Shown here piece after piece: positions 1,785 to 63,859 of a DNA stretch of 64,000 nucleotides. This DNA is from Phaeocystidibacter luteus (GTDB taxonomy: Bacteria > Bacteroidota > Bacteroidia > Flavobacteriales > Schleiferiaceae). A model generated the notes under the pieces. The model ran no database searches, was not told the origin of the DNA, and saw nothing but the letters and a program-made list of their open reading frames with translations. The stretch spans positions 496,001 through 560,000 of the forward strand of contig NZ_WBVO01000001.1 of the NCBI RefSeq assembly GCF_008933115.1, given 5' to 3'. The position numbers and the translations under genes are program-made. Each line of letters starts with the position of its first letter. The first letter of the stretch is position 1.

Positions 1785-1889
1785 TTAGATATCGGCACCA
1801 AAATGGCACAGATTTTCAAATTTTGCCAAAAATTACACGACTGATTTTCAAGGGATTAGGGTTTAAAAAGCGTGGATTAACACTCCCGT

Positions 1890-2060
1890 CCTCGCTACTA
1901 GAAAAAGGTCTTCCAATACGGAGGGCCTTTTTTGGTTTATTGCGTAGCGTGGTTCGCGGTGTGGTGTGATTCGCGCAAAACCGCAATAGATAAAGGCGTG
2001 AGATGTGAGCCATCAGGCTTGAAACTCTCCAACAGTCGACTCTGGCTCTGCGTCTGACCA
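1890..2060 (+). repeat. First copy of an imperfect tandem duplication
   Basis: The stretch from CTCGCTACTAGAAAAAGG through the hairpin, GGTTTATTGCGTAGCGTGG and the GCAAAACCGCAATAG module is nearly identical to 2169-2360, about 277 bases downstream. The copies differ by point changes and by short insertions in GTGTG and AAAAGC tracts, which looks like slippage. Confidence 0.8.
1902..1933 (+). terminator. Intrinsic-terminator-like hairpin, copy 1
   Basis: AAAAAGGTCTTCC pairs with GGAGGGCCTTTTT around a five-base loop (13 pairs, three of them G-T), followed by a T run. It would end transcription from the HTH repressor gene. Leftward it would also work, because the A run gives a U run in the opposite transcript. 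Confidence 0.65.
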
Positions 2061-2168
2061 TCTAACCCTCTAACCCTCCAACCCTCAGCGCAGAATGATT
2101 TGCGCGAAATGAGCGCAGGATTCATATCCGCCGGCTGGCGGACACGGGTTCTGCGACGCCCGGCGCAC

Positions 2169-2360
2169 TCGCTACTAGAAAAAGGTTTTCCGATATGGAG
2201 GGCCTTTTTTGGTTTATTGCGTAGCGTGGTTCACGGTGTGGTGTGGTGTGGTTCACGCAAAACCGCAAAAAGCAAAACCGCAATAGATAAAGGCGTGAGA
2301 TGTGAGCCATCAGGCTTGAAACTCTCCAACAGACGACTTTGGCTCTGCGTCTGACCATCT
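2169..2360 (+). repeat. Second copy of the imperfect tandem duplication
   Basis: Same order of sub-elements as 1890-2060, with expanded GTGTG and GCAAAACCGC motifs. It is preceded by the CCGCC/GGCGG hairpin near 2130. Confidence 0.8.
2179..2210 (+). terminator. Intrinsic-terminator-like hairpin, copy 2
   Basis: AAAAAGGTTTTCC pairs with GGAGGGCCTTTTT around GATAT. Several changes relative to copy 1 fall in the left arm but keep pairing through G-T pairs, so the fold is preserved. Confidence 0.6.
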
Positions 2361-2847
2361 AACCCTCTCCCGAATCTGCTTAGCCTCTCGGGATTCCTCC
2401 TTGCAGTCGGAACCTCCAACCCTATCCCGAATAGGCTTCGCCTCTCAGGGCTTCCTCGCTGCAATCAGAACTTTCAGCCGGAACATCTGCCACGCAGTCC
2501 ATGAGTCCAACCCTCTAACCCTCTGACCATCTAACCCTCTCCCGAATCGGCTCCGCCTCTCGGGATTCCTCCCTGCAGTCGGAACCTACAACCCTCTCCC
2601 GAATAGGCTTCGCCTCTCAGGGCTTCCTCGTTGCAAGCAGAACTTTCAGCCGGAATATCTGCACCGCAGTCCATGAGTCTAAAAGTCCAAAAGTCCAACT
2701 CCCGAATCGGCTTCGCCTCTCGGGATTCCTCCCTGCAGTCGGAACTTCCAGTCGGAACCTCCCCCTATTTGTTTTCTCCCACCCTTTCCCTATTTTCGAT
2801 ACGCCTTTGGAGTTCCAGAGGTGAGAGACCTGAGACCTACCCTTTTT

Positions 2848-3234
2848 ATGAAGACCATTTTACTCGTGGATGACGATCCAATACACAACGTCATCCTAAA
2901 ACGGGCAATTAATAACGCATGTCCAGATGTGGACGTTATCGATTTTACCGAACCCATTCGCGCACTGGAATACCTCAGTACTGCGGAAGGATCTGATGCG
3001 CCATCAATCATCTTTTTAGATCTCGAAATGCCCATAATGAATGGGTTTGAATTCGCCGACACGCTTGGATCCAATCATACGAGACTGCTCTCTTCTACCC
3101 AAGTTCATATGGTTAGCAGTTCTGTTATAGAATCAGACATTCAAAAGGCGAAGGACCACCCTCATATTCAAGGGTTTATATCTAAACCGGTAGGACGAAA
3201 TATGCTGGAGGAGATTATTGGGTGTGGTTCCTAA
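2848..3234 (+). CDS. Single-domain response regulator
   Basis: This is a 128-residue receiver domain with no output domain. The expected residues are visible: acidic pair D9/D10 (LLVDDDP), phospho-acceptor D58 in FLDLEMPIMNG, a Ser in the Thr/Ser position (MVSSS, about residue 90), and K113 in FISKPV. Proteins of this Rcp1/CheY-like kind relay phosphate from hybrid or phytochrome-type histidine kinases, or control motility. No kinase gene is adjacent. The ATG at 2848 gives the normal domain start; a GTG at 2821 would add nine residues. The gene is an isolated unit with repeat blocks on both sides. Confidence 0.9.
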   Translation: MKTILLVDDDPIHNVILKRAINNACPDVDVIDFTEPIRALEYLSTAEGSDAPSIIFLDLEMPIMNGFEFADTLGSNHTRLLSSTQVHMVSSSVIESDIQKAKDHPHIQGFISKPVGRNMLEEIIGCGS

Positions 3235-3698
3235 TCTAACTCTAAGGATTAGATTGCTCGGTGTGGATCTTCCACCGGCTGGCGGGCAAGCAGAAAAATT
3301 GTGTTTCTCGCAAAATCGCAAAAAGCAAAACCGCAATAGATAAAGGCGTGAAACGTGAGCCTTAAGGCTTGACACTCCTCTAGAGTCGACTCAGTCCCTG
3401 CGTCTGACCATCTAACCCTCTAACCCTCTAACCATCTAAACATCTAACCCTCTCCCGAATCGGCTCCGCCTCTCGGGATTCCTCCTTACAGTCGGAACTT
3501 CCAGTCGGAACATCTGCCACGCAGTCCATGAGTCCAAAAGTCCAACCCTCTAACCCTCTGACCATCTAACCATCTAAACATCTAACCCTCTCCCGAATCG
3601 GCTTCGCCTCTCGGGATTCCTCCTTGCAGTCGGAACTTCCAGTCGGAACCTCCAACTCCCCCCAATTCCCTATCTTCCCCTTCATCAATCCAACATCA
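3235..3698. repeat. Gene-free composite repeat region (464 bp)
   Basis: In order, the region holds: the CCACCGGCTGGCGGGCAAGC hairpin; a CGCAAAATCGCAAAAAGC / GCAATAGATAAAGGCGTGA segment; an inverted repeat near 3388-3405; CTAACCCT octamers (3411-3450); two hairpins of the CCCGAATCGGC type (near 3451 and 3593), each followed by CAGTCGGAAC strings; more CTAACCCT and CCATCT units; and a pyrimidine-rich run just before the start codon at 3699. No gene is supported. Confidence 0.8.
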
Positions 3699-4289
3699 AT
3701 GAGACTCAAAACTGCTTTGCTCGCTATTTTCTTGCTGTCTTTGGCCGACCTAGTGCTGTATGGCTGCTATTGCGATTGCGATTTTGCCCCAACGGGTACA
3801 TTCGAAATTTGTAGTATCGACCTGCTCTCAATCGATAATGCCGGCGGATCTCCCGCCACCGCCAGCGATACCGTATTGGCCGATGCCTACGCTATTGAAA
3901 TCACATTGAACATCACTCAAGAGGATATTTGCTCTCATTCGTTTTTAATGAATTCGGCTTTCGCCGCCTCGTGTAATTGTCCAGATGCATTCTTCGAGAA
4001 TCGAAATCCGGTTACTGAAGTGCATATTTACACCGTGAATGATTTCTCTACCACATACGACGCCGGGGATGAAGTCACCTCACTTTTCTACCGTTATTTA
4101 GGTCATGAATACGAGCCCATTAATTCATTTTTACGCCCACAAAATGCTGCGTCAGTCACCCCAATTAAAGTACGAGCACTGTTGATGGAAGCCCCCGCCA
4201 TAAAGGGTAACCATAGCTTTGAAGTAGAACTGATTATGCAAGACAGTACCGTGGTCTCCGCAACAACTTCATCCATTTATTTGAAATGA
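3699..4289 (+). CDS. Secreted, cysteine-rich hypothetical protein
   Basis: This 196-residue protein starts MRLKTALLAIFLLSLADL, an N-terminal signal sequence. Just after it comes a cysteine cluster (GCYCDCDF) that may include a lipoprotein cysteine. Further cysteines occur at CSIDLL, DICSH and SCNCPD. The pattern of a short secreted domain with FEICSIDLLSIDNAGG resembles Bacteroidota DUF5034-type proteins, from memory and uncertain. The start at 3699 is chosen because it opens the signal sequence; the frame's upstream extension lies in repeat DNA. The stop overlaps the next gene's ATG (ATGA), so the two form an operon. Confidence 0.7.
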   Translation: MRLKTALLAIFLLSLADLVLYGCYCDCDFAPTGTFEICSIDLLSIDNAGGSPATASDTVLADAYAIEITLNITQEDICSHSFLMNSAFAASCNCPDAFFENRNPVTEVHIYTVNDFSTTYDAGDEVTSLFYRYLGHEYEPINSFLRPQNAASVTPIKVRALLMEAPAIKGNHSFEVELIMQDSTVVSATTSSIYLK

Positions 4290-5122
4290 AGAAACGCCTC
4301 TTTATCTCACTACTGCTGACATCTATAATTAGTCAAGCTCAGCTACCCGACATTTGGGGCGATGGTGATAGCGAATCTGACACAGAGCGAGAACACTACG
4401 TGTACTTTTCATCGGTTAGCTCATTGGATTTTGGATATGGATACACACAATCATTTCGCAGTTTTAAAAAGGGCGTCCCTTCGGATTATTTAGCTGGTTT
4501 TCAAGCCCCTTATCACACTCTTCATTTCAATTTTGAATACGGATTCAAGCATGGCTACAATTGGTTCATTTGGGCGGGTGGCAGTGTTTATATTCAAATA
4601 GCAGATAGAGAAGAACAACTGCGCGATGCAATTCCTGATTACTACCCGAACTTTGTGGTGAAACAAATGGACCAACTCTCTTCTGAAGATTCAGAGGGAA
4701 ACGAAATCAATGCCGATAGAAGCCCCGTAAATTGGTCATTCGGCGCTGGCTATCAAATCAATAAAAGAAGTTTCGCCATAAACATGAAAGCGGGGATGTC
4801 CATTACCGCTATTCCAAACTTGCAGACAAGAGCCACGCTCAAAGAACTCAACACCAACAATTATCACGAGCTTTCCTACTATGTACTCGACAATCCAATC
4901 TCGAATGGACTTGGAATAAATGCCGCGCTGTCGATTAGATATTTCTTCAATGATGAGTTTGGGGTATTCATCGCTGCCGATTTCAACCGAAACTGGTACG
5001 ACTGGGAATACGAGGAGGAGTTCTACAACCTCTTTACAGGCGAATCGTCGAGCACGTTTTACAATTACAATGGATTCCTAGACTTCTATCAGATTCGCGC
5101 CGGAGTATCCATTTACCTGTAA
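4286..5122 (+). CDS. Predicted outer-membrane beta-barrel protein
   Basis: This 278-residue protein has a clear signal peptide (MKKRLFISLLLTSIISQAQ). Alternating aromatic and polar strands follow, for example HFNFEYGFKHGYNWFIWAGG and a C-terminal GFLDFYQIRAGVSIYL, ending in the hydrophobic/aromatic pattern typical of outer-membrane barrels. No enzymatic motif was seen. It is translationally coupled to the upstream cysteine-rich secreted protein, suggesting the two act together at the cell surface. The specific family is not recognised. Confidence 0.7.
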   Translation: MKKRLFISLLLTSIISQAQLPDIWGDGDSESDTEREHYVYFSSVSSLDFGYGYTQSFRSFKKGVPSDYLAGFQAPYHTLHFNFEYGFKHGYNWFIWAGGSVYIQIADREEQLRDAIPDYYPNFVVKQMDQLSSEDSEGNEINADRSPVNWSFGAGYQINKRSFAINMKAGMSITAIPNLQTRATLKELNTNNYHELSYYVLDNPISNGLGINAALSIRYFFNDEFGVFIAADFNRNWYDWEYEEEFYNLFTGESSSTFYNYNGFLDFYQIRAGVSIYL

Positions 5123-5221
5123 AGCTAGTCGTTGGTGTATTGAGAAGGTCCACTTGTTCATTAAGGTTTTGGTTGTCAAGTTGTTTAGGGTACGTTTGAT
5201 TGAGACCTAACACCCAACAGT

Positions 5222-5683
5222 TTGACACTTCACAGAATAAATGTCATCGAGCTCATCTTATTAGCGAGTACCGCAGTGCTCTCGCTTCTGCTCGTGTTTG
5301 GAGTTCAGCTTCCTATTGGATACGTGAGCATGTCCCTCCTGCTTACTGCCGCCCTCTACTTTTACTTTGGAGCTATAGTATTTGCAGGTTCAAAATTCCG
5401 CAGCTTGATCAACGGATCGCTGCAAGAAGAAACGGGTATCGCTTATATTATTTATTCGCTCGTTGGCGGCATTGGCATCGGCCTCACCTTAGGGGTATAT
5501 GCATTGCACCTATACAGCATACCTATATCGTCGGAGCTCTTTCTGTTTAGCGCAATTATGCAGAGTGTTTCAAACTTCGGACTCAAATATGTGGAGAAGA
5601 AGGGACAGAGGACACATTGGTTGAGTCATTTGAGACTAACTGCCGGTACCATACTTGCCATTTCGTTATACCTCTGGATGTAA
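5222..5683 (+). CDS. Small integral membrane protein
   Basis: This 153-residue protein has four hydrophobic segments (residues about 8-28, 33-53, 74-98 and 136-152), compatible with four membrane passes. No ATG is available upstream before an in-frame stop, so the start is taken as TTG at 5222 (TTGACACTT). No family motif is recognised. The gene ends 14 bases before the next start and is likely cotranscribed with it. Confidence in the start is low. Confidence 0.55.
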   Translation: MTLHRINVIELILLASTAVLSLLLVFGVQLPIGYVSMSLLLTAALYFYFGAIVFAGSKFRSLINGSLQEETGIAYIIYSLVGGIGIGLTLGVYALHLYSIPISSELFLFSAIMQSVSNFGLKYVEKKGQRTHWLSHLRLTAGTILAISLYLWM

Positions 5684-5697
5684 CGTATCTTGTGGTC

Positions 5698-6609
5698 ATG
5701 AAATACCTGACCTCCCTCCTAGCACTTGTACTTGCCAGCACCCTATGCCACAGTCAACTCGTTGAGATCTCCAACGCCAATGGCACTTTCCACGGCGAAT
5801 GGCGAATAGCCAATGCTAAATCTGTCGTGATTGTGATTCCAGGCTCGGGAGCGATAGATAGAGACGGAAATTCTGGGAGTATGCAGGGAAATGACCTGGC
5901 GTACCTGGCGGATTCGTTGCATAAGCACGGTTTCAGCGTCCTCACAACTGACAAGATGAATGCGGCGGCCTCATCCGTATCTGAAACTGCTGATGTGAGG
6001 TTTGAAGATTTCATCAGCCTTGCCAGTGACTGGGTCATTGTAGCGGTGGATAGTGGTTATAGCGACATTACCGTGATTGGGCACTCACAAGGAGCATTGA
6101 CCGCATTAGAGCTTGCCAAGAACGTAAATGTCAAGCGTGTGATTAGCCTATGTGGGGCAGGCCGACCAATCAACGAAGTTTTAAAGGATCAATACGCTCA
6201 GCAAATCCCTGAGCCGTACATCAGTAAAATTGGCGTAGCACTCGATAGTCTTCATGACGGATACTTTCCTGAATCTCCGCATTTCGCAGTGAACTCTTTG
6301 TTCGCTCCAGGTAATAGGGAGTTCCTCGCATCGTGGATGTCATTCGACCCTTGTGAGTCGATTGCTGCTGCAAAGAAACCGGTGTTAATCATTGGCGGCT
6401 CCACGGATATTCAAGTCTTACAAGAAGAGGGTGATCGCCTCGCCGAATGTAACCCAGATGCTGAGTATGTAATCATTGAAGGCATGGGCCATATGCTCAG
6501 AAAAGCACCGGGCGCCCGAATGCTTGCTTTAAGCTATTACGGACGCCCAGATTTGCCTTTGCATTCAGAGCTCACAACTACGATAGTTGATTTTCTTCAG
6601 AAGAACTAG
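5698..6609 (+). CDS. Secreted alpha/beta hydrolase
   Basis: This 303-residue protein has an N-terminal signal peptide (MKYLTSLLALVLASTLCHSQ). The fold has an oxyanion-type PGSG segment near residue 50 and the nucleophile elbow GHSQG. A candidate acid lies in GGSTDIQ and the catalytic His in GMGHM, so the Ser-Asp-His triad is intact. Such proteins are esterases or peptidases of unknown substrate in the periplasm. The ATG at 5698 begins the signal peptide; an upstream extension to 5617 would overlap the preceding gene. The stop codon overlaps that of phoH on the other strand within a CTAG. Confidence 0.8.
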   Translation: MKYLTSLLALVLASTLCHSQLVEISNANGTFHGEWRIANAKSVVIVIPGSGAIDRDGNSGSMQGNDLAYLADSLHKHGFSVLTTDKMNAAASSVSETADVRFEDFISLASDWVIVAVDSGYSDITVIGHSQGALTALELAKNVNVKRVISLCGAGRPINEVLKDQYAQQIPEPYISKIGVALDSLHDGYFPESPHFAVNSLFAPGNREFLASWMSFDPCESIAAAKKPVLIIGGSTDIQVLQEEGDRLAECNPDAEYVIIEGMGHMLRKAPGARMLALSYYGRPDLPLHSELTTTIVDFLQKN

Positions 6610-7970
6610 AGGAGTTCGTTTGCCAAATTGGCCAATTCACTTCGCTCCCCTTTCTCCAGTGTGATATGGGCATATAGTGGTGTGCCTTTCAGCTTGTCTA
6701 CCAAATAGCTCAATCCGTTTGATTGTTCATCGAGATACGGCGTATCAATCTGATTGATATCTCCAGTAAAAATGAACTTTGAGTTTTCACCCGCACGTGT
6801 AATTATCGTCTTGATTTCGTGTGGTGTGAGGTTCTGCGCTTCATCCACAATGAAAATGACATTTGACAAGCTTCGACCGCGAATGTATGCGAGTGGAGTG
6901 ACGAGAATCTTCTCGCTGTTCACCATGTCTTCAATTTGTTTGTACTGGCGATCTCTTTCGGAGAACTGATTCTTGATGTATTTCAGATTATCCCAGAGCG
7001 GCTGCATGTATGGATTCACCTTCTGCTCTGCGTCTCCTGGCAGGAATCCAATATCTCTATTCGAAAGAGGAACAATCGGGCGGGCTAAGTAGATCTGTTT
7101 GAAGTTTCTCCGTTGCTCAAGGCTACCTGCAAGCGCCAATAGCGTCTTACCCGTACCCGCAACTCCAGTGAGCGTCACCAGCTTGATGTTGTCGTCTAGA
7201 ATAGCATGAAGTGCGAAGGTTTGTTCCGCATTCCGAGGTTTTACGCCATAGAAAGACTTCTTCTCAATATGTTCAAGAGATTCAGAATGCGCATTGAAAA
7301 AGGCTAGGCTGCTGCTTCTCGTTCCTTTGAGGATGTAGAACTTATTATCTACCGGCTTGATCTTCTTTGTCAGCTTCGTAAGACTATCTCTCTGAATATG
7401 TCCATCAGCGTAAAGCTTGTCAATCACCTTTTGCGGGAACGTATTGATTTGCTCTTTACCCGTGTAGATGTTCGAGATGTCCTCGATTTTACCCGTTTGA
7501 TAATCCTCCGCATTTAACCCTAAAGCTTTTGCCTTCAGACGTAGGTTTATGTCTTTCGTAACGAGGATCACGGAACGAGTCGGCTCATCGCTCTCTAGCT
7601 TCAGCGCAGCATTTAGGATGCGGTGATCCATCTTGTGCGAAGCGAACACCTTTTGAGCATCTACTTTGTCGCCGGTTACCGACATCACCACCTTGAACTT
7701 ACCTCGTTTCGGACCGTTCAGATTAATCCACTCGTTCACCTTCTCGGTTCCCGCTTTCTTATCTAGGAATCTGATAAATTCCCGAGCTTCATAATTCTTG
7801 GTATCATTCCCCTTCTTAAATTCGTCGAGCTCTTCCAAAACCGTAATCGGAATGGCAACGTCGTGTTCATCGAAGTTGAGAATGGCATTGTGATCAAAAA
7901 GGATCACAGATGTATCGAGCACAAAAATCTTCTTTGTTGATTTCTTCGCCCGTGTGGTTTTAGTCGGCAT
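6606..7970 (-). CDS. PhoH family protein with N-terminal PIN domain
   Basis: This 454-residue protein has the YlaK/PhoH2-like architecture. An N-terminal PIN nuclease domain (residues about 14-150) has conserved acidic residues in VLDTSVILFD and LEELDEFKK. A PhoH P-loop ATPase follows, with Walker A GVAGTGKT, Walker B FIVDEAQN and the later FTGDINQID. PIN-PhoH proteins are RNA-directed helicase/ribonucleases. The gene is a single transcription unit facing the hydrolase gene, with the two stop codons overlapping. A good promoter lies just upstream (7988-8019). Confidence 0.93.
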   Translation of the reverse strand: MPTKTTRAKKSTKKIFVLDTSVILFDHNAILNFDEHDVAIPITVLEELDEFKKGNDTKNYEAREFIRFLDKKAGTEKVNEWINLNGPKRGKFKVVMSVTGDKVDAQKVFASHKMDHRILNAALKLESDEPTRSVILVTKDINLRLKAKALGLNAEDYQTGKIEDISNIYTGKEQINTFPQKVIDKLYADGHIQRDSLTKLTKKIKPVDNKFYILKGTRSSSLAFFNAHSESLEHIEKKSFYGVKPRNAEQTFALHAILDDNIKLVTLTGVAGTGKTLLALAGSLEQRRNFKQIYLARPIVPLSNRDIGFLPGDAEQKVNPYMQPLWDNLKYIKNQFSERDRQYKQIEDMVNSEKILVTPLAYIRGRSLSNVIFIVDEAQNLTPHEIKTIITRAGENSKFIFTGDINQIDTPYLDEQSNGLSYLVDKLKGTPLYAHITLEKGERSELANLANELL

Positions 7971-7987
7971 AGATTTATTCGTTTGTC

Positions 7988-8019
7988 AAAAGATAAAGAA
8001 CCCCTATTCCGAATCACAA
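7988..8019 (-). promoter_or_regulatory. Predicted promoter of the PIN-PhoH gene
   Basis: Reading leftward there is TTG (8019-8017), a 21-base spacer and TATCTTTT (7995-7988), followed by G. This fits the Bacteroidota -33/-7 pattern, with one base shift in the -7 box. The start codon is 18 bases downstream. Confidence 0.5.
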
Positions 8020-8154
8020 TTTTTTGAAGGGTAAGTATCAACAAGATGAGGTCCAAATCTGTTGGTAACTTGTCGCTAATCGCCCATGCGATTTACGTAC
8101 ATTTAATGTTCGGCTCATCGCGAACCCCACAGAATCCAATAAACGTTTTCCAAC

Positions 8155-8802
8155 GTGATACAAGCAGATCCACAAACCATTTCCTCCATCTTTCCACTGT
8201 TTACCGACCAAAGACTTTTGAATGTGTTGGCCGACAGAGGAACCATCCGAACCTACGCTGCAGGCGACTATGTAATGGACCGAGGAATGCCCGTTGAGTT
8301 CATTCCACTTCTTCTCACCGGAAGTCTGCGTATTATGAGGAGAGATGATGAGGATAAGGAACTCCTACTCTACTATCTACGCGCTGGCGAAACCTGTGCT
8401 AGCAGCCTCACTTGCTGTATGGGGAAAACGAATAGCGAAGTGGAAGCTCTTGCTGAAGAAGACACCGAAGTTCTGGCTATCCCTTCAAACTTGGTGGACG
8501 AATGGATGGAAGAATTTCCGGAATGGAAGGCCTTCGTTATGCGCATTTACCACGACAGATTTCAAGAGTTGCTCGAAACGATCGACGCCATAGCCTTCCA
8601 GCAACTGGACGAGCGCTTGATGCGCTACTTTAACGAGCGTATCGACAATCAGGGTGGCGACAATGTCATTAAAGCGAGTCACCAAGAGATTGCCAACGAC
8701 CTACATTCTAGTCGTGAAGTAATCAGTCGTTTATTGAAGCAAATGGAGAAAAACGGCATGGTTACCCTTGGACGCAACCGTGTGGAGGTTCTAGAATCGT
8801 GA
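8155..8802 (+). CDS. Crp/Fnr family transcription regulator
   Basis: This 215-residue protein has an N-terminal cyclic-nucleotide-type sensor barrel (residues about 1-120), a dimerisation helix, and a C-terminal winged helix (HQEIANDLHSSREVISRLLK). A cysteine-rich stretch, TCASSLTCC, lies in the sensor domain where cAMP contacts would be in Crp. There is no N-terminal Fnr-type cluster. This subtype is often found beside sulfur-handling genes in Bacteroidota, and here it precedes a persulfide-dioxygenase/rhodanese gene. Sensing of persulfide or sulfide through those cysteines is an inference. The start codon is GTG. The stop codon lies inside the predicted operator 8798-8813. Confidence 0.88.
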   Translation: MIQADPQTISSIFPLFTDQRLLNVLADRGTIRTYAAGDYVMDRGMPVEFIPLLLTGSLRIMRRDDEDKELLLYYLRAGETCASSLTCCMGKTNSEVEALAEEDTEVLAIPSNLVDEWMEEFPEWKAFVMRIYHDRFQELLETIDAIAFQQLDERLMRYFNERIDNQGGDNVIKASHQEIANDLHSSREVISRLLKQMEKNGMVTLGRNRVEVLES

Positions 8803-8813
8803 TTTGAGTCACG
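8798..8813. promoter_or_regulatory. Crp/Fnr-type operator
   Basis: CGTGA, six bases, TCACG is a perfect palindrome with the spacing of the Crp consensus (TGTGA-N6-TCACA). It overlaps the end of the regulator gene. It is centred 41.5 bases upstream of the transcription start predicted from the -7 box at 8835-8842, the standard class II activator position. Confidence 0.65.
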
Positions 8814-8834
8814 TTTCATGAAAGCCAAGCTTCG

Positions 8835-8842
8835 CATCTTTG
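8835..8842 (+). promoter_or_regulatory. Predicted -7 box of the MBL-rhodanese gene
   Basis: CATCTTTG matches TAnnTTTG except for the first base. No good -33 TTG is present; the operator occupies that region, as expected for an activator-dependent promoter. An AGGAG ribosome-binding site follows at 8861-8865, unusually strong for this genome. Confidence 0.45.
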
Positions 8843-8870
8843 TCCTATCAAAATTGAAAAAGGAGTCTAT

Positions 8871-10283
8871 ATGAACGTAGAACAGATATATACTAATTGT
8901 CTCGCCGAAGCAGCATACTACATCACTTCTAACGGAGAAGCCGCTGTTATCGATCCGCTTCGCGAGAGCGAGCCATACCTTGAGCGACTCGAACGCGATG
9001 GCGTGAAACTCAAGTACATCTTCGAAACACACTACCACGCAGATTTCGTTTCAGGGCACCTTGACCTTGCTCGCAAGACCGGAGCCACCATTGTATACGG
9101 TCCAAAGGCAAATCCAACTTTTGAGGCTCACGAAGCCACAGACAACGAGGTTTTTAAGATTGGCGATGTTTCCCTGAAAGTCCTCCACACCCCAGGTCAT
9201 ACACAAGAGTCAACCACATTCCTTCTTATCGACGAAAACGATGAGGAACGTGCAATCTTTACTGGAGATACGCTTTTCTTAGGAGATGTAGGCCGCCCAG
9301 ACCTTGCGATCAAAACCGACTTAACCCAAGAAGATTTGGCGAGCATGTTGTTCGATTCACTTCGGAACAAGATTATGCCTTTGCCAGATTCTATTACGGT
9401 ATACCCGGGACATGGCGCGGGTTCTTCATGTGGAAAGAATCTTTCCTCAGACACGGTCGATACCTTGGGAAACCAGAAACGTACCAACTATGCGCTACGA
9501 GAAAACATGTCTCGTGAAGAGTTTGTAAAGGAAGTGACAGAAGGATTGGCGCCACCGCCGCAGTATTTCCCTGAGAACGCCCGCATGAACAAGTTTGGCT
9601 ACGACTCTATTGATGACATCATGAAGCGAGGAGTTCGTCCGCTATCTGCGAGTGATGTGCAATCAGATATGGAGGCTGGAGCACTTGTATTAGATACGCG
9701 AAGTGCTGCGAAATTCGTGGAGGCTCACATTCCAAACAGCATGTTTATTGGCATTGATGGTAACTTTGCCATGTGGGTTGGCGCTTTGATTACCGATTTA
9801 AAGCGCAGAATTGTTTTCTTGGCCGATGAAGGTCGCGAAGAAGAAGTAGTGAAGCGATTGGCCCGTGTGGGTTACGATCACGCTGTTGGGTACCTTGATG
9901 GAGGTATCGAATCTTGGAGTACTGCGGGCTTTGATACCAAGTCTTCAAAATCGATTTCTGCCGACGAGTTTAACAAGCGCTTCTCTGCCGGTGAAAAGAA
10001 TGTAGTAGATGTTCGCAAGCCAGGTGAATACAACCGTCGTCATGTGGAAAACGCCCTACTTTACCCCTTGGATGACATCCTAAGAGAAATGGGAACGTTA
10101 GACCGTGAAAACGACGCCTTCATTCACTGTGCAGGTGGATATCGATCGGTGATTGCATTATCCATGCTTGAAGCAGAAGGATACACCAACCTTACGAATG
10201 TTGAAGGAGGATTTAAAGCCATTGAAGGATTAAACGACGTCACGCTTACCAACGAGGTGACCTGTTCATCAACGGCTTCTTAA
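8871..10283 (+). CDS. Persulfide dioxygenase-like MBL-fold protein fused to two rhodanese domains
   Basis: This is a 470-residue cytosolic protein. The N-terminal metallo-beta-lactamase domain (1-240) has the metal-binding HYHADFVSGH, a second His in HTPGHT and Asp in FTGDTLF, as in ETHE1-type persulfide dioxygenases, which oxidise glutathione or other low-molecular-weight persulfides to sulfite. Two rhodanese domains follow. The first (about 260-350) has no cysteine at the active-site loop (FLADEGREEE), so it is probably inactive. The second (about 365-460) has the catalytic Cys in HCAGGYRS. It lies downstream of the Crp-like regulator and its predicted operator, so expression is probably induced by sulfur stress. 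Confidence 0.9.
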   Translation: MNVEQIYTNCLAEAAYYITSNGEAAVIDPLRESEPYLERLERDGVKLKYIFETHYHADFVSGHLDLARKTGATIVYGPKANPTFEAHEATDNEVFKIGDVSLKVLHTPGHTQESTTFLLIDENDEERAIFTGDTLFLGDVGRPDLAIKTDLTQEDLASMLFDSLRNKIMPLPDSITVYPGHGAGSSCGKNLSSDTVDTLGNQKRTNYALRENMSREEFVKEVTEGLAPPPQYFPENARMNKFGYDSIDDIMKRGVRPLSASDVQSDMEAGALVLDTRSAAKFVEAHIPNSMFIGIDGNFAMWVGALITDLKRRIVFLADEGREEEVVKRLARVGYDHAVGYLDGGIESWSTAGFDTKSSKSISADEFNKRFSAGEKNVVDVRKPGEYNRRHVENALLYPLDDILREMGTLDRENDAFIHCAGGYRSVIALSMLEAEGYTNLTNVEGGFKAIEGLNDVTLTNEVTCSSTAS

Positions 10284-10307
10284 TATCGAGTGAATTGATT
10301 TCATGGA

Positions 10308-10335
10308 GGCGGCAGAGAAATCTGTCGCCTTTTTT
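10308..10335. terminator. Bidirectional intrinsic terminator
   Basis: GGCGGCAGA, loop GAAA, TCTGTCGCC (one G-T pair), then six T. It ends the MBL-rhodanese transcript and overlaps the stop codon of the convergent nnr gene. Confidence 0.85.
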
Positions 10336-11818
10336 ATGATAAATAATCGATCAGATCCGATGCGACTACCGCGTGCTCTCCTCTATCAATGGCAACTTCT
10401 TCACCTGCTCTACCGTGAAGCCAAGCACCGAGAATCGCGGCCTTAAGTGGCGCAATGCCTTGTGCAAGAAGGCCGGTTATCAACCCCGACAATACATCTC
10501 CACTACCTCCTGCTGCCATGGCAGGGTGACCACTCCCGTTGAAGTAAACATTACCGCTCGAGTCGCAAATGGCGGAATAGGCACCTTTAAGTAGAACTAT
10601 GCAATGGTGATCTTTAGCCCATCTTCGCGCGGCTTCAAGTCGAGAAATTGAATCCCCAAACTCTACACCCGTCATCGTATGAAATTCGCCGGCATGGGGT
10701 GTTAATACTGAGTTGGCTGGCAACTTCGACCAAGAATCTGTAATGCTCATAAGGTGCAAGGCATCCGCATCAATGAGCAGAGGAACTTGAACATCTTCAA
10801 GCAGGGCTGTGAGTGCATTGAAACTGGACTTCTCCCTTCCTAAACCTGGTCCAATGCCGACTGCCGTTATCCTCTTGGGTATTGGAATGGACGTGATTGA
10901 CGTCTCGCTATGGTCGAGCTGCACCATTGCCTCCGGAGCGCTGATTTGCAGAACGTCACACCCCATGCTAGGAATATGGGTGGTGACCAATCCAGCGCCA
11001 CTTCTCAAACAAGCTTTGGTGGCTAGAACGGCTGCGCCTAACATTCCTTTATGTCCGGCTGCAATCAAGGCGTGACCGTAATCCCCTTTGTGGCTGAAGG
11101 CCTTTCTATCTTGTCGAATTCCAACAACGTCATACCCTGTAGTCAAGTGATATGGGGTGTCGATATCATGAATCTTTTCTTCGTCGAGGCCAATATCCAT
11201 CACGTGGACATCGCCTGTGTATTCACCCAATCCAGCCACCATGAAACTTAGCTTGGGAAACTGAAACGTGAGCGTGTGCGTCGCTTCGACACATTCGCTA
11301 AGTTTTATAGTTGAATCGAGATCGGAAGGTAAACCGGTGGGAACATCAATACTAATCACATGGTCGTATCCCTCTTGAATGGCTTGAACTACATCTTTTA
11401 AAATGCCGCGGAGCGGTTTGTCGAGGCCTATGCCCAATATGGCGTCAATGGCAACGGCGGTTTCGTCAACTTCGGGCATTTCCTTCTTGGCGTTGACGTA
11501 GTGAACATCAAGCTTAACTTCGGCTAAGCGCTCTATGTTTCTGGTGAAATTTGAAGTACCTGAACTCCTGTGCGCAATGGCGAAAACTTGTACGGAATAC
11601 CCTGCGAGCGCGAGGTGACGCGCGATGGCCAATCCATCTGCCCCGTTGTTTCCCATACCACAGAAAACGTGGAAGGAGACGGAGTGATCATACGCTTCAA
11701 TAATCCAATCTGAACATGTACTGGCAGCTCTTTCTACAAGATCGATTGACGAAATTGGCTCGTTTTCGATGGTTGCCTGATCAATCTCTCTAATTTGACT
11801 TGCGGAGAATAGCTTCAT
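10334..11818 (-). CDS. nnr: Bifunctional NAD(P)H-hydrate epimerase / ADP-dependent NAD(P)H-hydrate dehydratase
   Basis: This 494-residue protein has the usual two-domain form. The N-terminal YjeF_N epimerase domain (1-210) has CGMGNNGADGLAIARHL. The C-terminal YjeF_C/carbohydrate-kinase-like dehydratase (225-494) has GHKGMLGAAVLA, LTPHAGEF and the ADP-binding GSGDVLSGLI. The pair repairs hydrated NADH and NADPH. It is the last gene of the leftward ybbR-coaE-nnr operon. Its ATG lies 29 bases inside the end of coaE, implying translational coupling. Confidence 0.95.
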   Translation of the reverse strand: MKLFSASQIREIDQATIENEPISSIDLVERAASTCSDWIIEAYDHSVSFHVFCGMGNNGADGLAIARHLALAGYSVQVFAIAHRSSGTSNFTRNIERLAEVKLDVHYVNAKKEMPEVDETAVAIDAILGIGLDKPLRGILKDVVQAIQEGYDHVISIDVPTGLPSDLDSTIKLSECVEATHTLTFQFPKLSFMVAGLGEYTGDVHVMDIGLDEEKIHDIDTPYHLTTGYDVVGIRQDRKAFSHKGDYGHALIAAGHKGMLGAAVLATKACLRSGAGLVTTHIPSMGCDVLQISAPEAMVQLDHSETSITSIPIPKRITAVGIGPGLGREKSSFNALTALLEDVQVPLLIDADALHLMSITDSWSKLPANSVLTPHAGEFHTMTGVEFGDSISRLEAARRWAKDHHCIVLLKGAYSAICDSSGNVYFNGSGHPAMAAGGSGDVLSGLITGLLAQGIAPLKAAILGAWLHGRAGEEVAIDRGEHAVVASDLIDYLS

Positions 11819-12386
11819 GAATGTTCTTTACTTGAGGAATGAGCGGTTGCTTTTCATCATTCAATATAATGAAATCGGCAAGCTCCGCCTTTTTTTCGTC
11901 AGACCATTGTGCATCCATCCTAGACTTCACTTGTTCTGTGGTAGATCCATCTCGATCTTTCACGCGCTGAATACGCAGGTCCTCTGGTGCTGTAACTAGG
12001 ATATTGAAATCTGACAGGACATGTCCGCCCGTTTCGAACAGGATTGCCGCTTCCTTCAACACATAAGGTGAATCCTGTTCTGCGCTCCACTTGTCAAAAT
12101 CTCGCCCCACTGCAGGATGAACGAGGGCGTTGACGGTCTTTCTCTCTTCCGGATTATTGAAGATGCGTTCGGCTAACCACGGGCGATTCAAACGTCCTTC
12201 GGTATACAACTCTTCGCCAAATGCACCTTTTAGTTCTGAAACAAGCTCATCATCGTGTTCCATCAACCACTTGGCCCGATCATCGGCATAATAACAGGGA
12301 ATATTGAAAGCTTCGAAGATCTTTGCTACGGTACTCTTTCCGCTTCCGATACCTCCGGTCAATCCAACTTGTATCACTTTCGACAT
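11790..12386 (-). CDS. coaE: Dephospho-CoA kinase
   Basis: This 198-residue P-loop kinase catalyses the last step of coenzyme A synthesis (phosphorylation of the ribose 3'-hydroxyl of dephospho-CoA). Walker A is GLTGGIGSGKST near the N-terminus. YYADDRAK, VHPAV and the LILF-like DFNILVTAPEDLRIQR follow in the family order. Length is normal. The ATG shares one base with the ybbR stop codon (TAATG), and the 3' end overlaps nnr by 29 bases. Confidence 0.95.
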   Translation of the reverse strand: MSKVIQVGLTGGIGSGKSTVAKIFEAFNIPCYYADDRAKWLMEHDDELVSELKGAFGEELYTEGRLNRPWLAERIFNNPEERKTVNALVHPAVGRDFDKWSAEQDSPYVLKEAAILFETGGHVLSDFNILVTAPEDLRIQRVKDRDGSTTEQVKSRMDAQWSDEKKAELADFIILNDEKQPLIPQVKNIHEAILRKSN

Positions 12387-13318
12387 TATTCGACTTCGAT
12401 TATTTCGACATAGCGTGGGGCCCAGTCTACAATCTCGGCAAAGTCTGGATGGTGAACAAACTTCACGGGTACTTCGGCATCGCCGGATAAGATTCGTTCT
12501 ACTTCGGCTCGAATCATGCTTCCTTGAAGTCGACTATACTCATCGAGAGGCACTCTGCACTTCACTGAAACCTTGTTAGGAATAGGCTTCCATGAAAGTC
12601 TACTTCCCACTTTATTAAGCTCTACATCAACCCACTTCTCCGTATAAGGAGCCACTTTTTGAACGATTTCGAGTTCTTCAACCGGACTGAGCACACCTTC
12701 GGGAGCTACAATTTCCCAGGTAATATTTACGTCCTCCTCTACCCCAGTCATAGCAAAAACTGGGGTTTTGAAAACCGACATGGTATCGAGAACTTCAGGA
12801 GGTCCGAATAAGAATATGGTATCTGGATTGACTTCCGGAGCACCATGCTTGTAATAGGGATGCTCAAACTGAAGATCGAGCCGCGCTACTACTGGCAGGG
12901 CTTTGCGCTGGAGCGTGCTGGTATGAATCCACAAGGTATCAGATAATGTCCATTCGACATGTCCAGGCACATCGTCTGTGGTAGCCTCGGAAAAAGCTTC
13001 TGGCGACAAGTACAAGTCGGTGGTTCCTCCTCTTTCGAAGGCCTTAAAAGACAGTTCAATTTGATCTTGTGACTTCCACATTTCACGCAGGGCGTAAAGT
13101 CCACCGGATTTCGACACCACGGAAACTGTTTTTGGAGGATCCAAGATCATTCTATCGTGGGGTGTATCGATGAGAAGGATTGGCACTTCAACGGTTGTTC
13201 TGAACTTATTCTGACCAAGTTGGAGTAAGGACCACAGGAAAAACGACAGCACTAAAAAGCCGAATCGACTAAGCCACAGGGCTCTTTTAGACTTCCATTT
13301 TTTATTGGGTGCTGCCAT
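12386..13318 (-). CDS. YbbR-like domain protein
   Basis: This 310-residue membrane-anchored protein has a basic N-terminus and one transmembrane helix (about 18-36, LSRFGFLVLSFFLWSLLQL), then extracytoplasmic YbbR-type beta repeats. In Firmicutes the YbbR protein CdaR modulates c-di-AMP cyclase. In Bacteroidota it is regularly found in this yajC-ybbR-coaE neighbourhood, but its role there is not established. A pyrimidine-rich run with TTCCCTATTTTCCCACC lies directly before the ATG, similar to other genes that follow the composite repeat. Confidence 0.88.
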   Translation of the reverse strand: MAAPNKKWKSKRALWLSRFGFLVLSFFLWSLLQLGQNKFRTTVEVPILLIDTPHDRMILDPPKTVSVVSKSGGLYALREMWKSQDQIELSFKAFERGGTTDLYLSPEAFSEATTDDVPGHVEWTLSDTLWIHTSTLQRKALPVVARLDLQFEHPYYKHGAPEVNPDTIFLFGPPEVLDTMSVFKTPVFAMTGVEEDVNITWEIVAPEGVLSPVEELEIVQKVAPYTEKWVDVELNKVGSRLSWKPIPNKVSVKCRVPLDEYSRLQGSMIRAEVERILSGDAEVPVKFVHHPDFAEIVDWAPRYVEIIEVE

Positions 13319-13798
13319 GGTGGGAAAATAGGGAAGAATTTGGACTAATGGGCTATGGGAGGGTTAGAGGGTTAGAGGGTTAGAGGGTTAGAGGGTTAGA
13401 GGGTTAGACCTTTGGACTAAGAGACTCATGGACTGCGTGGATGATGTTCCGACTGGAAGTTCCGACTGGAAGTTCCGACTGCAAGTTCCGACTGCAAGTT
13501 CCGACTGCAAGGAGGAATCCCGAGAGGCGAAGCCGATTCGGGAGAGGGTCAGAGGGTTAGATGGTCAGACGCAGAGACTGCGTCGACTCTAGAGAGTGTC
13601 AAGCCTGATGGCTCACGTCTCACGCCTTTATCTATTGCGGTTTTGCTTTTTGCGATTTTGCGAGAAACACAATTTTGCAGCTTGCCCGCCAGCCGGCGGT
13701 AGAAATACATCTCGTTATAACCACATCCCACGAGCATCACCCACAAAAAAAATCCCCCACCAACCGGCAGAGGATTCTTCAAATCGCTTTGGTGAAGC
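13319..13798. repeat. Gene-free composite repeat region between yajC and ybbR (480 bp)
   Basis: The same modules as at 1785-3698 occur here in the opposite orientation, so that read leftward they come in the usual order. The CCGCCGGCTGGCGG hairpin and GCAAGCTGCAAAATTG (about 13670-13705) come first, then GCAAAACCGCAATAGATAAA (13630-13650) and a perfect inverted repeat GACGCAG-AGA-CTGCGTC (13568-13584). The CCCGAATCGGC hairpin (near 13520-13545) is followed by five GTCGGAACTT-like units (13447-13510), an octamer array, and the ybbR start. A T/A-rich stretch with CCCACAAAAAAAATCCCCC lies next to yajC. No gene is supported. Confidence 0.85.
13360..13407 (+). repeat. AGGGTTAG octamer tandem array (6 units)
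   Basis: Six exact AGGGTTAG units run head to tail, placing GGG every eight bases. The G-rich strand could form a G-quadruplex. It is the template strand for the leftward ybbR transcript. Confidence 0.9.
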
Positions 13799-14134
13799 TT
13801 ACTTCTTCTTGTCGCTCTTCTTGTCTTCTTTTGGAAGATACTGAGCGCTCAGTTCCTTAGAAATGGCAGACTTCTCGAGTTTCATACGGCCGCCATCAAC
13901 TTCAAGAATGATGTACGTGTCTCCTACTTCTTGGATCTTTCCGTGAATACCTGAAGTGGTCACGACTTTCATTCCCTTGTTGATTTGATCGCGGAATTTC
14001 GTCTCCTCCTTCTGCTTTCTTGCCTGTGGACGAAGGAAGAAGAGCCAAATGATTCCGATCATGAGGACCATCATCAAAATGGTTTGCATACCGCCGCCAC
14101 CTTGGGCTTGAAGGAACATAGCTGATAAATTCAT
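13799..14134 (-). CDS. yajC: Preprotein translocase subunit YajC
   Basis: This 111-residue protein has one N-terminal membrane helix (about 16-34, MQTILMMVLMIGIIWLFFL) followed by RPQARKQKE and a small cytoplasmic beta domain (KGMKVVTTSGIHGKIQEVGDTYIILEV), the standard YajC form. It associates with SecDF at the Sec translocon. A lysine-rich tail ends the protein. It is downstream of DUF1573 and nusB in the order usual for Bacteroidota, but separated from ybbR by the composite repeat. Confidence 0.95.
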   Translation of the reverse strand: MNLSAMFLQAQGGGGMQTILMMVLMIGIIWLFFLRPQARKQKEETKFRDQINKGMKVVTTSGIHGKIQEVGDTYIILEVDGGRMKLEKSAISKELSAQYLPKEDKKSDKKK

Positions 14135-14172
14135 TCTTTCTCTTTTCTTGAGATATTCTAGAGATTACTCTC

Positions 14173-14652
14173 TTATTGAGCGCCGTTAATTACGTTCGCC
14201 TTGATATTAAGTACGGTTGTTGGAGGCGTGGTGTTAGCCGTGATAGTCACGCGCTTTTGAGTCATACCACTCTTGTTTGAAGAGTTGAAGCTCACCTTCA
14301 TCTCCCCTGTTTCACCAGGCTGGATTGGAGTACGTGGCCATTCTGGCACTGTACATCCGCAGCTTCCTTTAGCGTTGCTGATAATCAATGGCGCATCACC
14401 TGTGTTTGTGAACGTGAACACGGTCTGAACCGTTCTGCCCTCTTCAACGTCGCCGAAATCATGCGTGGTTTCGTTGAATTCAAAAGCAGGAGATCCAGAA
14501 GCTGTTACGTCAGCCGCGCTAATGCCAGCCTCTTCCGAATCGTTGTAATTCACAGCAGCTGTGTTGTCATCCTTGATTTTGCTAGAAGCATTGTCGCATG
14601 ACGCCAACGCGAATACCGACAAAAGTGCCAATGTTCCGAAGCTATATTTCAT
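14173..14652 (-). CDS. DUF1573 lipoprotein
   Basis: This 159-residue protein has a lipoprotein signal (MKYSFGTLALLSVFALASC, lipidation at the Cys), an acidic linker, and one DUF1573 immunoglobulin-like domain (about 50-159; FEFNETTHDFGDVEEG, FTNTGDAPLIISNAKGSCGC). It is probably periplasmic or exported. Its molecular role is unknown, although the nusB-DUF1573-yajC order is conserved in Flavobacteriales. A strong promoter starts inside the end of nusB (14682-14712), so it can be expressed separately from nusB. Confidence 0.9.
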   Translation of the reverse strand: MKYSFGTLALLSVFALASCDNASSKIKDDNTAAVNYNDSEEAGISAADVTASGSPAFEFNETTHDFGDVEEGRTVQTVFTFTNTGDAPLIISNAKGSCGCTVPEWPRTPIQPGETGEMKVSFNSSNKSGMTQKRVTITANTTPPTTVLNIKANVINGAQ

Positions 14653-63631: not shown

Positions 63632-63729
63632 AGGCTACAGGCGTCAGGCTTGAGGCGTCAGGCGTCAGGCTTCAGGCTTCAGGCTTCAGGCGTCAGGCTT
63701 CAGGCTTCAGGCTTGAGGCTTGAGGCTGG
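63632..63729 (+). repeat. 7-bp tandem array (14 units of AGGCTTC type)
   Basis: Fourteen contiguous heptamers run from AGGCTAC to AGGCTGG, mostly AGGCTTC, AGGCGTC and AGGCTTG. This array is not seen in the other composite repeats, where only a single CATCAGGCTTGA-like unit occurs at the same relative place, so it may be an expansion of that unit. Confidence 0.9.
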
Positions 63730-63769
63730 CTTAGCGTCACTCTATTTCAGGAAAGGTCAAGCTCTGCGT

Positions 63770-63825
63770 CCAACCCTCTAACCCTCTAACCCTCTAACCC
63801 TCCAACCCTCCAACCCTCTAACCTT
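63770..63825 (+). repeat. 8-bp tandem array (7 units of CTAACCCT/CCAACCCT)
   Basis: Seven contiguous octamers: CCAACCCT, three CTAACCCT, two CCAACCCT, and CTAACCTT. This is the reverse complement of the AGGGTTAG array at 13360-13407. Confidence 0.9.
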
Positions 63826-63859
63826 CCATACGCCTCTCCAAATTCCCTACTTTTACCCC

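Follow-up and report, generated by a model that had tools for sequence, protein, structure and literature searches.

Polar tandem repeats in intergenic DNA

Dispersed, mostly intergenic tandem arrays with a G-rich and a C-rich strand have been described by Rehm et al. (2015), who reported the heptamers GGGAATC in Xanthomonas and GGGGA(C/T)T in Nostoc, found with all classes of genes (PMC4692102). In these arrays, the 5' end of the G-rich strand, which is the 3' end of the C-rich strand, lies closest to the ORF border, whatever the direction of the ORF. The word Rho is absent from the paper (PMC4692102). TAACTGA arrays, described by MacGregor (2015), are direct repeats in intergenic DNA that stand mostly forward before start codons, with Bacteroidetes among the hosts and some close relatives that are repeat-less (PMC4679880); one unit is reported across distant groups and proposed to provide post-transcriptional sites a few nucleotides from the start. 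Two further elements are used below for comparison: the sigma-A -7 consensus TAnnTTTG, reported for Flavobacterium psychrophilum (PMC9723704), and the Rho-utilisation (rut) site, for which the first step of RhoTermPredict evaluates 78 nt by the C/G ratio and a C every 11-13 nt (PMC6407284).

The arrays reported here share with the Xanthomonas and Nostoc heptamers their dispersal, their mostly intergenic position, their occurrence with all gene classes and their polarity, which is the one already in print (PMC4692102); the kind of element is therefore already known. New are other unit lengths (8 nt, TTAGAGGG, here and a different 9-mer in another species of the genus), a Bacteroidota host, the recurrence of the polarity with unrelated units in other species of the genus, its independence from canonical G-quadruplex motifs, and borders resolved to -7 boxes and terminators. 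In addition, two Xanthomonas keep most repeats between the same genes, whereas the repeats are missing here at the compared orthologues, and the orientation in tandem gene pairs is biased here but hardly so in the species of Rehm et al. (30 and 35% in one, 35% each in the other; PMC4692102). TAACTGA arrays are likewise direct intergenic repeats, mostly forward before start codons; in contrast to them (PMC4679880), the unit here is species-specific and found upstream of the -7 box and also at gene ends. A rule that survives replacement of the unit within a genus points to a mechanism or to selection acting on strand composition at transcription borders. What was a decade-old descriptive note on the Xanthomonas and Nostoc heptamers thereby becomes a question open to testing, namely unit insulation or transcription-driven repeat growth, and a natural misreading of such repeats as promoter carriers is corrected.

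The repeat in the window and in the genome

The window is a stretch of 64,000 nt and forms part of a 3.2-Mb genome in 27 contigs. The host is a member of the Bacteroidota, and two array-adjacent proteins carry T9SS sorting domains over the cut-off, a domain typical of this phylum. The interval 13319-13798 separates yajC from a YbbR-like gene that starts at 13318 on the minus strand. In gene direction, the interval contains a GCAAAACCGCAA stretch, a long module and the hairpin module B (CTCCCGAATCGGCTTCGCCTCTCGGGATTCCTCC...GTCGGAAC), followed by a perfect octamer array (CTAACCCT)n and then by TTCCCTATTTTCCCACC-ATG. The parts of this locus and of the three other repeat-bearing genes in the window are listed in Table 1. 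As the first-pass annotation had noted, the octamer strand is constant: each of the four genes (2848, plus; 3699, plus; 13318, minus; 63860, plus) is preceded by the C-rich octamer (CTAACCCT) on its coding strand. The same module order, which the annotation had also claimed for the four, does not extend to the right-end site, where the octamers are present and module B is missing. No Rfam family matched window positions 1800-14200 at the gathering score, and a known RNA family was rejected as the identity of the repeat in that span. Within window positions 1900-2400, a terminator-like hairpin and the repeat modules that follow it are duplicated in tandem (at about 1898 and about 2181, judged by eye).

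Table 1. Features of the four repeat-bearing genes in the window
Feature	Position	Strand	Remark
Octamer and module B cluster 5' of response-regulator gene	2064..2732	+	3 octamer-pair and 3 module B matches, co-oriented; start 115 bp away
Candidate -7 box TATTTTCG, 5/6 matches	2791..2798	+	49 nt before start of 2848
Response regulator receiver gene	2848..3234	+	Pfam PF00072, E 3.8e-14
Octamer and module B cluster 5' of DUF5034 gene	3414..3623	+	3 octamer-pair and 2 module B matches; start 75 bp away
Weak candidate -7 box TATCTTCC, 4/6 matches	3671..3678	+	20 nt before start of 3699
DUF5034 protein (the secreted protein of the first-pass annotation)	3699..4289	+	Pfam PF16437, E 5.2e-17
YbbR-like gene	12386..13318	-	Pfam PF07949, 20.9 bits, under the cut-off of 22.3
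Weak candidate -7 box TATTTTCC, 4/6 matches	13323..13330	-	4 nt before YbbR-like start
Perfect octamer array (CTAACCCT)n	13359..13407	-	RNA predicted to be unstructured
Module B, two-hairpin element and part of the following GTCGGAAC repeat	13491..13544	-	
Intrinsic-terminator-like hairpin and T run after yajC	13745..13777	-	By eye
yajC, same-strand gene upstream of the repeat	13799..14119	-	Pfam PF02699, E 1.4e-24
Octamer array before WYL-domain regulator, without module B	63772..63826	+	Site scan
Candidate -7 box TACTTTTA, 5/6 matches	63848..63855	+	4 nt before start 63860

A pair of octamers has 216 matches in the genome at up to one mismatch, and the reversed-pattern control has none, so the pair is not due to chance. 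A 99-nt query containing module B gave at least 86 matches, a few of them to the query tail only (40 of 56 candidate regions were scored), and 90 copies of module B were found at up to eight mismatches in the DNA stretches examined. The long window-type module (A/D) has 16 matches, and the four full-length ones are all inside the window. Clustering of the hits in the flanks of the sites among the matches listed gives at least 57 sites; the 57 that were placed comprise 34 with both modules, 16 with octamers only and 7 with module B only. Genes at the sites were called with our own codon-usage ORF caller trained on the window, and their start codons are predicted ones. The sites lie in 28 tandem, 17 divergent and 11 convergent gene arrangements; in the comparison stretches, gaps of 100 bp or more number 70, 29 and 12, respectively. 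No common function was evident among the 23 of 38 array-adjacent co-oriented genes that were scanned (dnaG, dnaX, a class II tRNA synthetase, thiolase and others). Among the matches listed for 60 genomes, own genome included, the octamer pattern occurs in the own genome only. The best literature matches listed, from a search whose coverage mostly leaves out subscription journals, included no paper that describes this octamer or connects such repeats with Rho.

Orientation and polarity at gene edges

The first-pass annotation had the repeat always upstream of a start codon and in the orientation of the gene. Across the genome, the array is co-oriented with the next gene at 38 of 57 sites; the other 19 comprise 7 tandem sites, 11 convergent sites and one at the edge of a stretch, with only the facing gene end visible. 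The four of four in the window are a small sample of this two-in-three tendency. Tandem gene pairs allow both orientations, and there 21 of 28 sites are co-oriented (p 0.0125), which is a bias and no rule. The genome-wide bias that the first-pass annotation proposed to look for is thus present in tandem pairs, though not strictly. As to the outcome that it named as a refutation, namely that the opposite orientation is equally frequent, the opposite orientation does occur, at a third of the sites, but not equally often.

A much stronger regularity, absent from that annotation, is polarity. At 53 of the 56 sites with both flanks, the C-rich strand has its 3' end closer than its 5' end to a gene boundary, be it a start or an end (p 8e-13). 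The median distance to the boundary is 84 bp from the 3' end of the C-strand and 406 bp from its 5' end, the latter distances being lengthened by further modules that lie 5' of the arrays and do not count towards the spans. This polarity is found in every arrangement (19/21 tandem co-oriented, 7/7 tandem anti-oriented, 17/17 divergent and 10/11 convergent sites), as well as at 15 of the 16 octamer-only sites. The array points into the nearest gene edge, at starts and ends alike. With another unit, a median border distance of 84 bp and 19 of 57 sites not before a co-oriented start, these arrays are distinct from TAACTGA arrays.

Promoters and terminators at the borders

Of the 31 co-oriented sites tested, 21 have a -7 box with five or six matches out of six in the sequence from array to start codon (6.1 expected by shuffling), and 9 have a perfect one (0.4 expected); the test covered distances of 12-170 nt, with 7 of the 38 co-oriented sites falling outside (more than 170 or less than 12 nt from the start). 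The resemblance of the run after the repeat to TAnnTTTG, which the first-pass annotation had pointed out, is borne out by these counts, two of the four candidates in the window reaching just 4/6. A TTCCCTA-like run does follow the repeat before all four window genes; that it always stands near or at the ATG is not correct for the first, the -7 candidates ending 49, 20, 4 and 4 nt before the start codons at 2848, 3699, 13318 and 63860. This run is the -7 region and is outside the repeat. As a repeat module it was rejected: AATTCCCTAYTTT has 15 genome matches at up to one mismatch and 5 when reversed; it is the context of the -7 box, and similar runs also precede repeat-less orthologues (by eye). 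Neither strand of 10,916 nt of repeat contains a TAnnTTTG, and a promoter inside the repeat was rejected. A fixed-spacing operator was likewise dismissed, as the distance from the array end to the best -7 candidate varies from 0 to 118 nt.

Several of the arrays at gene ends extend into the A-rich flank of a converging terminator (by eye). With a simple detector, intrinsic terminators were found at 10 of 18 array-facing gene ends and at 19 of the 79 others (p 0.02). Genes upstream of tandem co-oriented arrays have one in 5 of 21 cases versus 10 of 37 elsewhere, and the idea that the array replaces the intrinsic terminator is thus unsupported.

The best -7 candidate is located 4-5 nt before the start codon at 8 of the 31 co-oriented sites (window 13323-13330 and 63848-63855; L080, L068, L095, two in L097, and L073), a gap that would predict leaderless or nearly leaderless mRNAs. 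In comparison samples of perfect boxes, gaps of 3-5 nt were found in 4 of 36 cases in the own genome, 3 of 29 in G001 and 7 of 45 in G002, the latter two being the genomes of two same-genus species that were used for comparison.

Orthologous genes in two same-genus species

Eighteen array-adjacent protein fragments (14 N-terminal, 4 C-terminal) were searched against G001 and G002; of the 14 genes represented by N-terminal fragments, 12 have at least one orthologue there. In 16 of 23 orthologue upstream regions, a -7 box is shared at an equal gap, compared with 78 of 299 non-orthologous pairs (Fisher p 4e-5). Octamers or module B occur within 170 nt upstream in none of the 23 orthologue regions, compared with 12 of 14 own regions; among the orthologues compared, there is no conservation of the arrays. 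By eye, the box and part of the leader agree across the three species for dnaG, thiolase and a glutamate dehydrogenase-type gene, the thiolase of G001 having been missed by the formal count, and for dnaX the box alone agrees, whereas the DNA upstream does not agree for any of these four genes. For the YbbR-like gene, both same-genus orthologues score as having the shared box. These comparisons show the predicted promoter to be older than the repeat at most of the orthologous genes compared.

Unrelated arrays with the same polarity

In G001, 9-mer arrays (AAACCCCTY)n are present, with 160 matches at up to two mismatches and 2 for the reversed control. The stretches around the first 100 listed places, with three mismatches allowed, yielded 36 sites, of which 29 are polar (p 3e-4); for some of the seven exceptions, the caller has likely missed a start codon (by eye), and the count was left as it is. 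Co-orientation in tandem pairs is seen at 17 of 24 sites in G001 and, pooled with the own genome, at 38 of 52 (p 0.0012). In G002, a scan of 173 intergenic regions for skewed arrays of period 6-10 identified 18 arrays of 7- and 8-mers, with 16 polar (p 0.0013), or 15 of 17 (p 0.0023) without the dnaG array, which was known when its stretch was chosen. The orientation of these arrays is co-directional in 8 cases and other in 10.

The same scan found 13 arrays in G001, of which 8 are 7-mers and 8 are polar (not significant), and none in 111 own regions, in stretches chosen away from the listed sites. A cruder scan, using the best 48-nt window with no skew filter or extension, gave 6/10 polar in G001, 6/9 in G002 and 1/2 in the own genome. 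The mean inbound C/G skew over all intergenic edges is significant in G002 only. The polarity is therefore firm for the own octamers and the 9-mers of G001, well supported by one scan for G002, and not proven for the 7-mers of G001. Strand composition is what the arrays have in common, with 52% C and 3% G in octamer-only arrays and 38% C and 13% G in those of G002.

Module B

A gapless alignment of 72 module B copies was made, with 8 of the 80 distinct copies (shifted or divergent) left out. In the three-helix structure, 90.6% of the cells are paired and 14 cells are changed on both sides, compared with 2.8 in shuffles. One pair occurs as UA, GC and AU; further pair types are not unusually numerous, since 77 of 500 shuffles reach the same number. 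For three single copies, the predicted folding barely beats that of shuffled sequence (z -0.42 to -1.18). Correction of palindromes by template switching could yield the same covariation signal. Because of this, and because the copies are related, the covariation shows a maintained palindrome and not a functional RNA. A fixed order of octamers and module B was not found (19 versus 15). Octamer identity declines with distance from the 3' end of the array, but the measurement took octamers as its anchor, and the trend is given no weight here.

In a scan of named genomes, which may omit the own genome and very near ones, the core hairpin of module B has one isolated copy, in Flavobacteriaceae bacterium 14752 (L105 5948-5974), with no octamers in the 2.4 kb examined there.

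Possible causes of the polarity

The species-specific tandem repeats have been shown to be polar edge arrays that fill intergenic DNA up to near a transcription-unit border. The border faced by the 3' end of the C-rich, G-poor strand is shown to be the -7 box of a promoter or a gene end, often with an intrinsic terminator. What seems to matter for the pattern is where the array stands and how its strands are composed, not whether it carries a promoter. One tentative, weakly favoured explanation is that the arrays work like rut-type insulators, with selection for C-rich, G-poor inbound RNA. RNA entering the unit, by read-through from upstream or as antisense from the opposite side, would be C-rich, G-poor, unstructured and dense in YC steps, like a Rho-utilisation site, and Rho would end such stray transcription before it enters the unit. 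The maintained property would be the strand composition of the RNA across the array, not its sequence, and the repeated unit would be arbitrary because slippage can supply any C-rich unit.

The predicted inbound RNA resembles rut sites as defined in RhoTermPredict, with C exceeding G over 78 nt, regularly spaced C and little structure (PMC6407284). A rut-like 78-nt window (C/G above 2, C every 11-13 nt) is found inbound at 49 of 57 sites and outbound at none, a contrast partly due to the fact that the C-rich strand defines the array; elsewhere, 21 of 106 intergenic edges have such a window. Octamer-only arrays hold 3.94 YC steps per 10 nt inbound and 0.18 outbound, and a 50-nt octamer array has a predicted RNA folding of 0 kcal/mol. 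Rut sites are not usually perfect tandem repeats. Rho is encoded in the genome (TIGR00767, E 9.1e-191, over the cut-off), with Rho_N and Rho_RNA_bind domains that are about 140 residues apart. The preference in tandem pairs for the orientation facing sense read-through (38/52) counts for an insulator, and this excess at starts is the main datum that leans to selection. Several observations count against it: the 17 divergent sites face little read-through; arrays are not conserved at the compared orthologues; module B is structured and lies among the octamers in no fixed order; intrinsic terminators are in no shortage upstream of arrays (5/21 versus 10/37); and G002 has 8 co-oriented arrays and 10 others, the general scan of G001 gives 8/13 polar and the cruder scan is weaker. 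Furthermore, the Nostoc heptamers show the same polarity, and cyanobacteria are named as lacking Rho (PMC4692102, PMC10284900), so that Rho cannot be the general cause if all of this is one phenomenon. One Synechococcus was among 12 control genomes matching the Rho model, its cut-off status not being given. More doubtful is the wider proposition that this genus, together with Xanthomonas and Nostoc by their published heptamers, repeatedly builds unrelated C-rich arrays of one polarity, in which any unit giving C-rich inbound and G-rich outbound RNA might serve as a sequence-independent border element limiting stray transcription.

Non-adaptive growth of oriented repeats explains most of the facts equally well and is nearly as likely as insulation. 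Slippage arrays would expand in the spacer up to the point at which selection acting on the promoter or terminator halts further growth, and R-loops would set the polarity. R-loops have been linked to repeat expansion; transcription leaving the unit would place G-rich RNA on a C-rich template, and R-loops formed in that direction would favour expansion. Such growth accommodates a polarity at starts and ends that survives a change of unit, the fast turnover of arrays between same-genus species with -7 boxes kept, and the lack of a common function among the 23 adjacent genes; it needs neither GGG tracts nor Rho (PMC10284900, PMC4692102). On this account, however, read-through of terminators should exceed upstream antisense transcription and arrays at gene ends should dominate in tandem pairs, and the reverse is seen (38 of 52 co-oriented). 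The spread of a mobile composite is an unlikely cause. Here, the palindromic module B would be moved by a Y1 (REP-associated) transposase with fixed polarity at unit borders, dragging the octamers along, in the manner of REP/BIME palindromes with RAYT transposases. Module B is indeed a short, dispersed palindrome of two hairpins with 90 copies and covariation (14 versus 2.8 in shuffles), and three Y1 genes are present in the genome (L102, L103 and L104). Yet no module B-like hairpin at up to seven mismatches was found in the 3.3 kb around each of these genes, module B is embedded in octamer arrays, 16 of 57 sites have octamers without it, 15 of them polar, and the stretches examined in G001 and G002 hold no module B at up to eight mismatches, although the 9-mers of G001 and the arrays of G002 are polar.

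Regulation by G-quadruplexes, in which the G-rich strand would fold at gene edges and act on transcription, is improbable. The canonical four-tract motif is carried by 29 of the 57 own sites, and similar heptamers were folded into G-quadruplexes in vitro by Rehm et al. (PMC4692102); 28 own sites are without the motif. It is not required for polarity, because 0 of 18 arrays in G002 carry it, yet 16 of 18 are polar. The proposal of the first-pass annotation, that the repeat brings a promoter or a 5' leader to the following genes, now has very little probability left, for all that -7 boxes after the arrays are far above chance. The box is outside the repeat (none in 10,916 nt) and common to repeat-less orthologues, and the repeat therefore does not bring the promoter; where the -7 box is real, transcription starts downstream of the array, which is thus no leader. 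In addition, 19 of the 57 sites are not upstream of a co-oriented gene at all.

Other repeats near the arrays

In two divergent gene pairs (L080 4046-4750 and L097 5868-6198), there is one array per promoter, and the two have opposite orientations, each aimed at its own gene. Another dispersed palindrome, present as variants of CCACGGGGCTTTAGCCCGTGG, was seen by eye on the 5' side of arrays (L087, L088, L089, L094, L068 and L093), and a GCCTCGTTCCTCGGCAAGG-like repeat is located near some of these variants (by eye). A second tandem family consists of 7-mer arrays, CAAGCCT / CAGGCTT (L097 8370-8480, L218 17197-17886 and window 63640-63730), which are partly found on the 5' side of octamer arrays.
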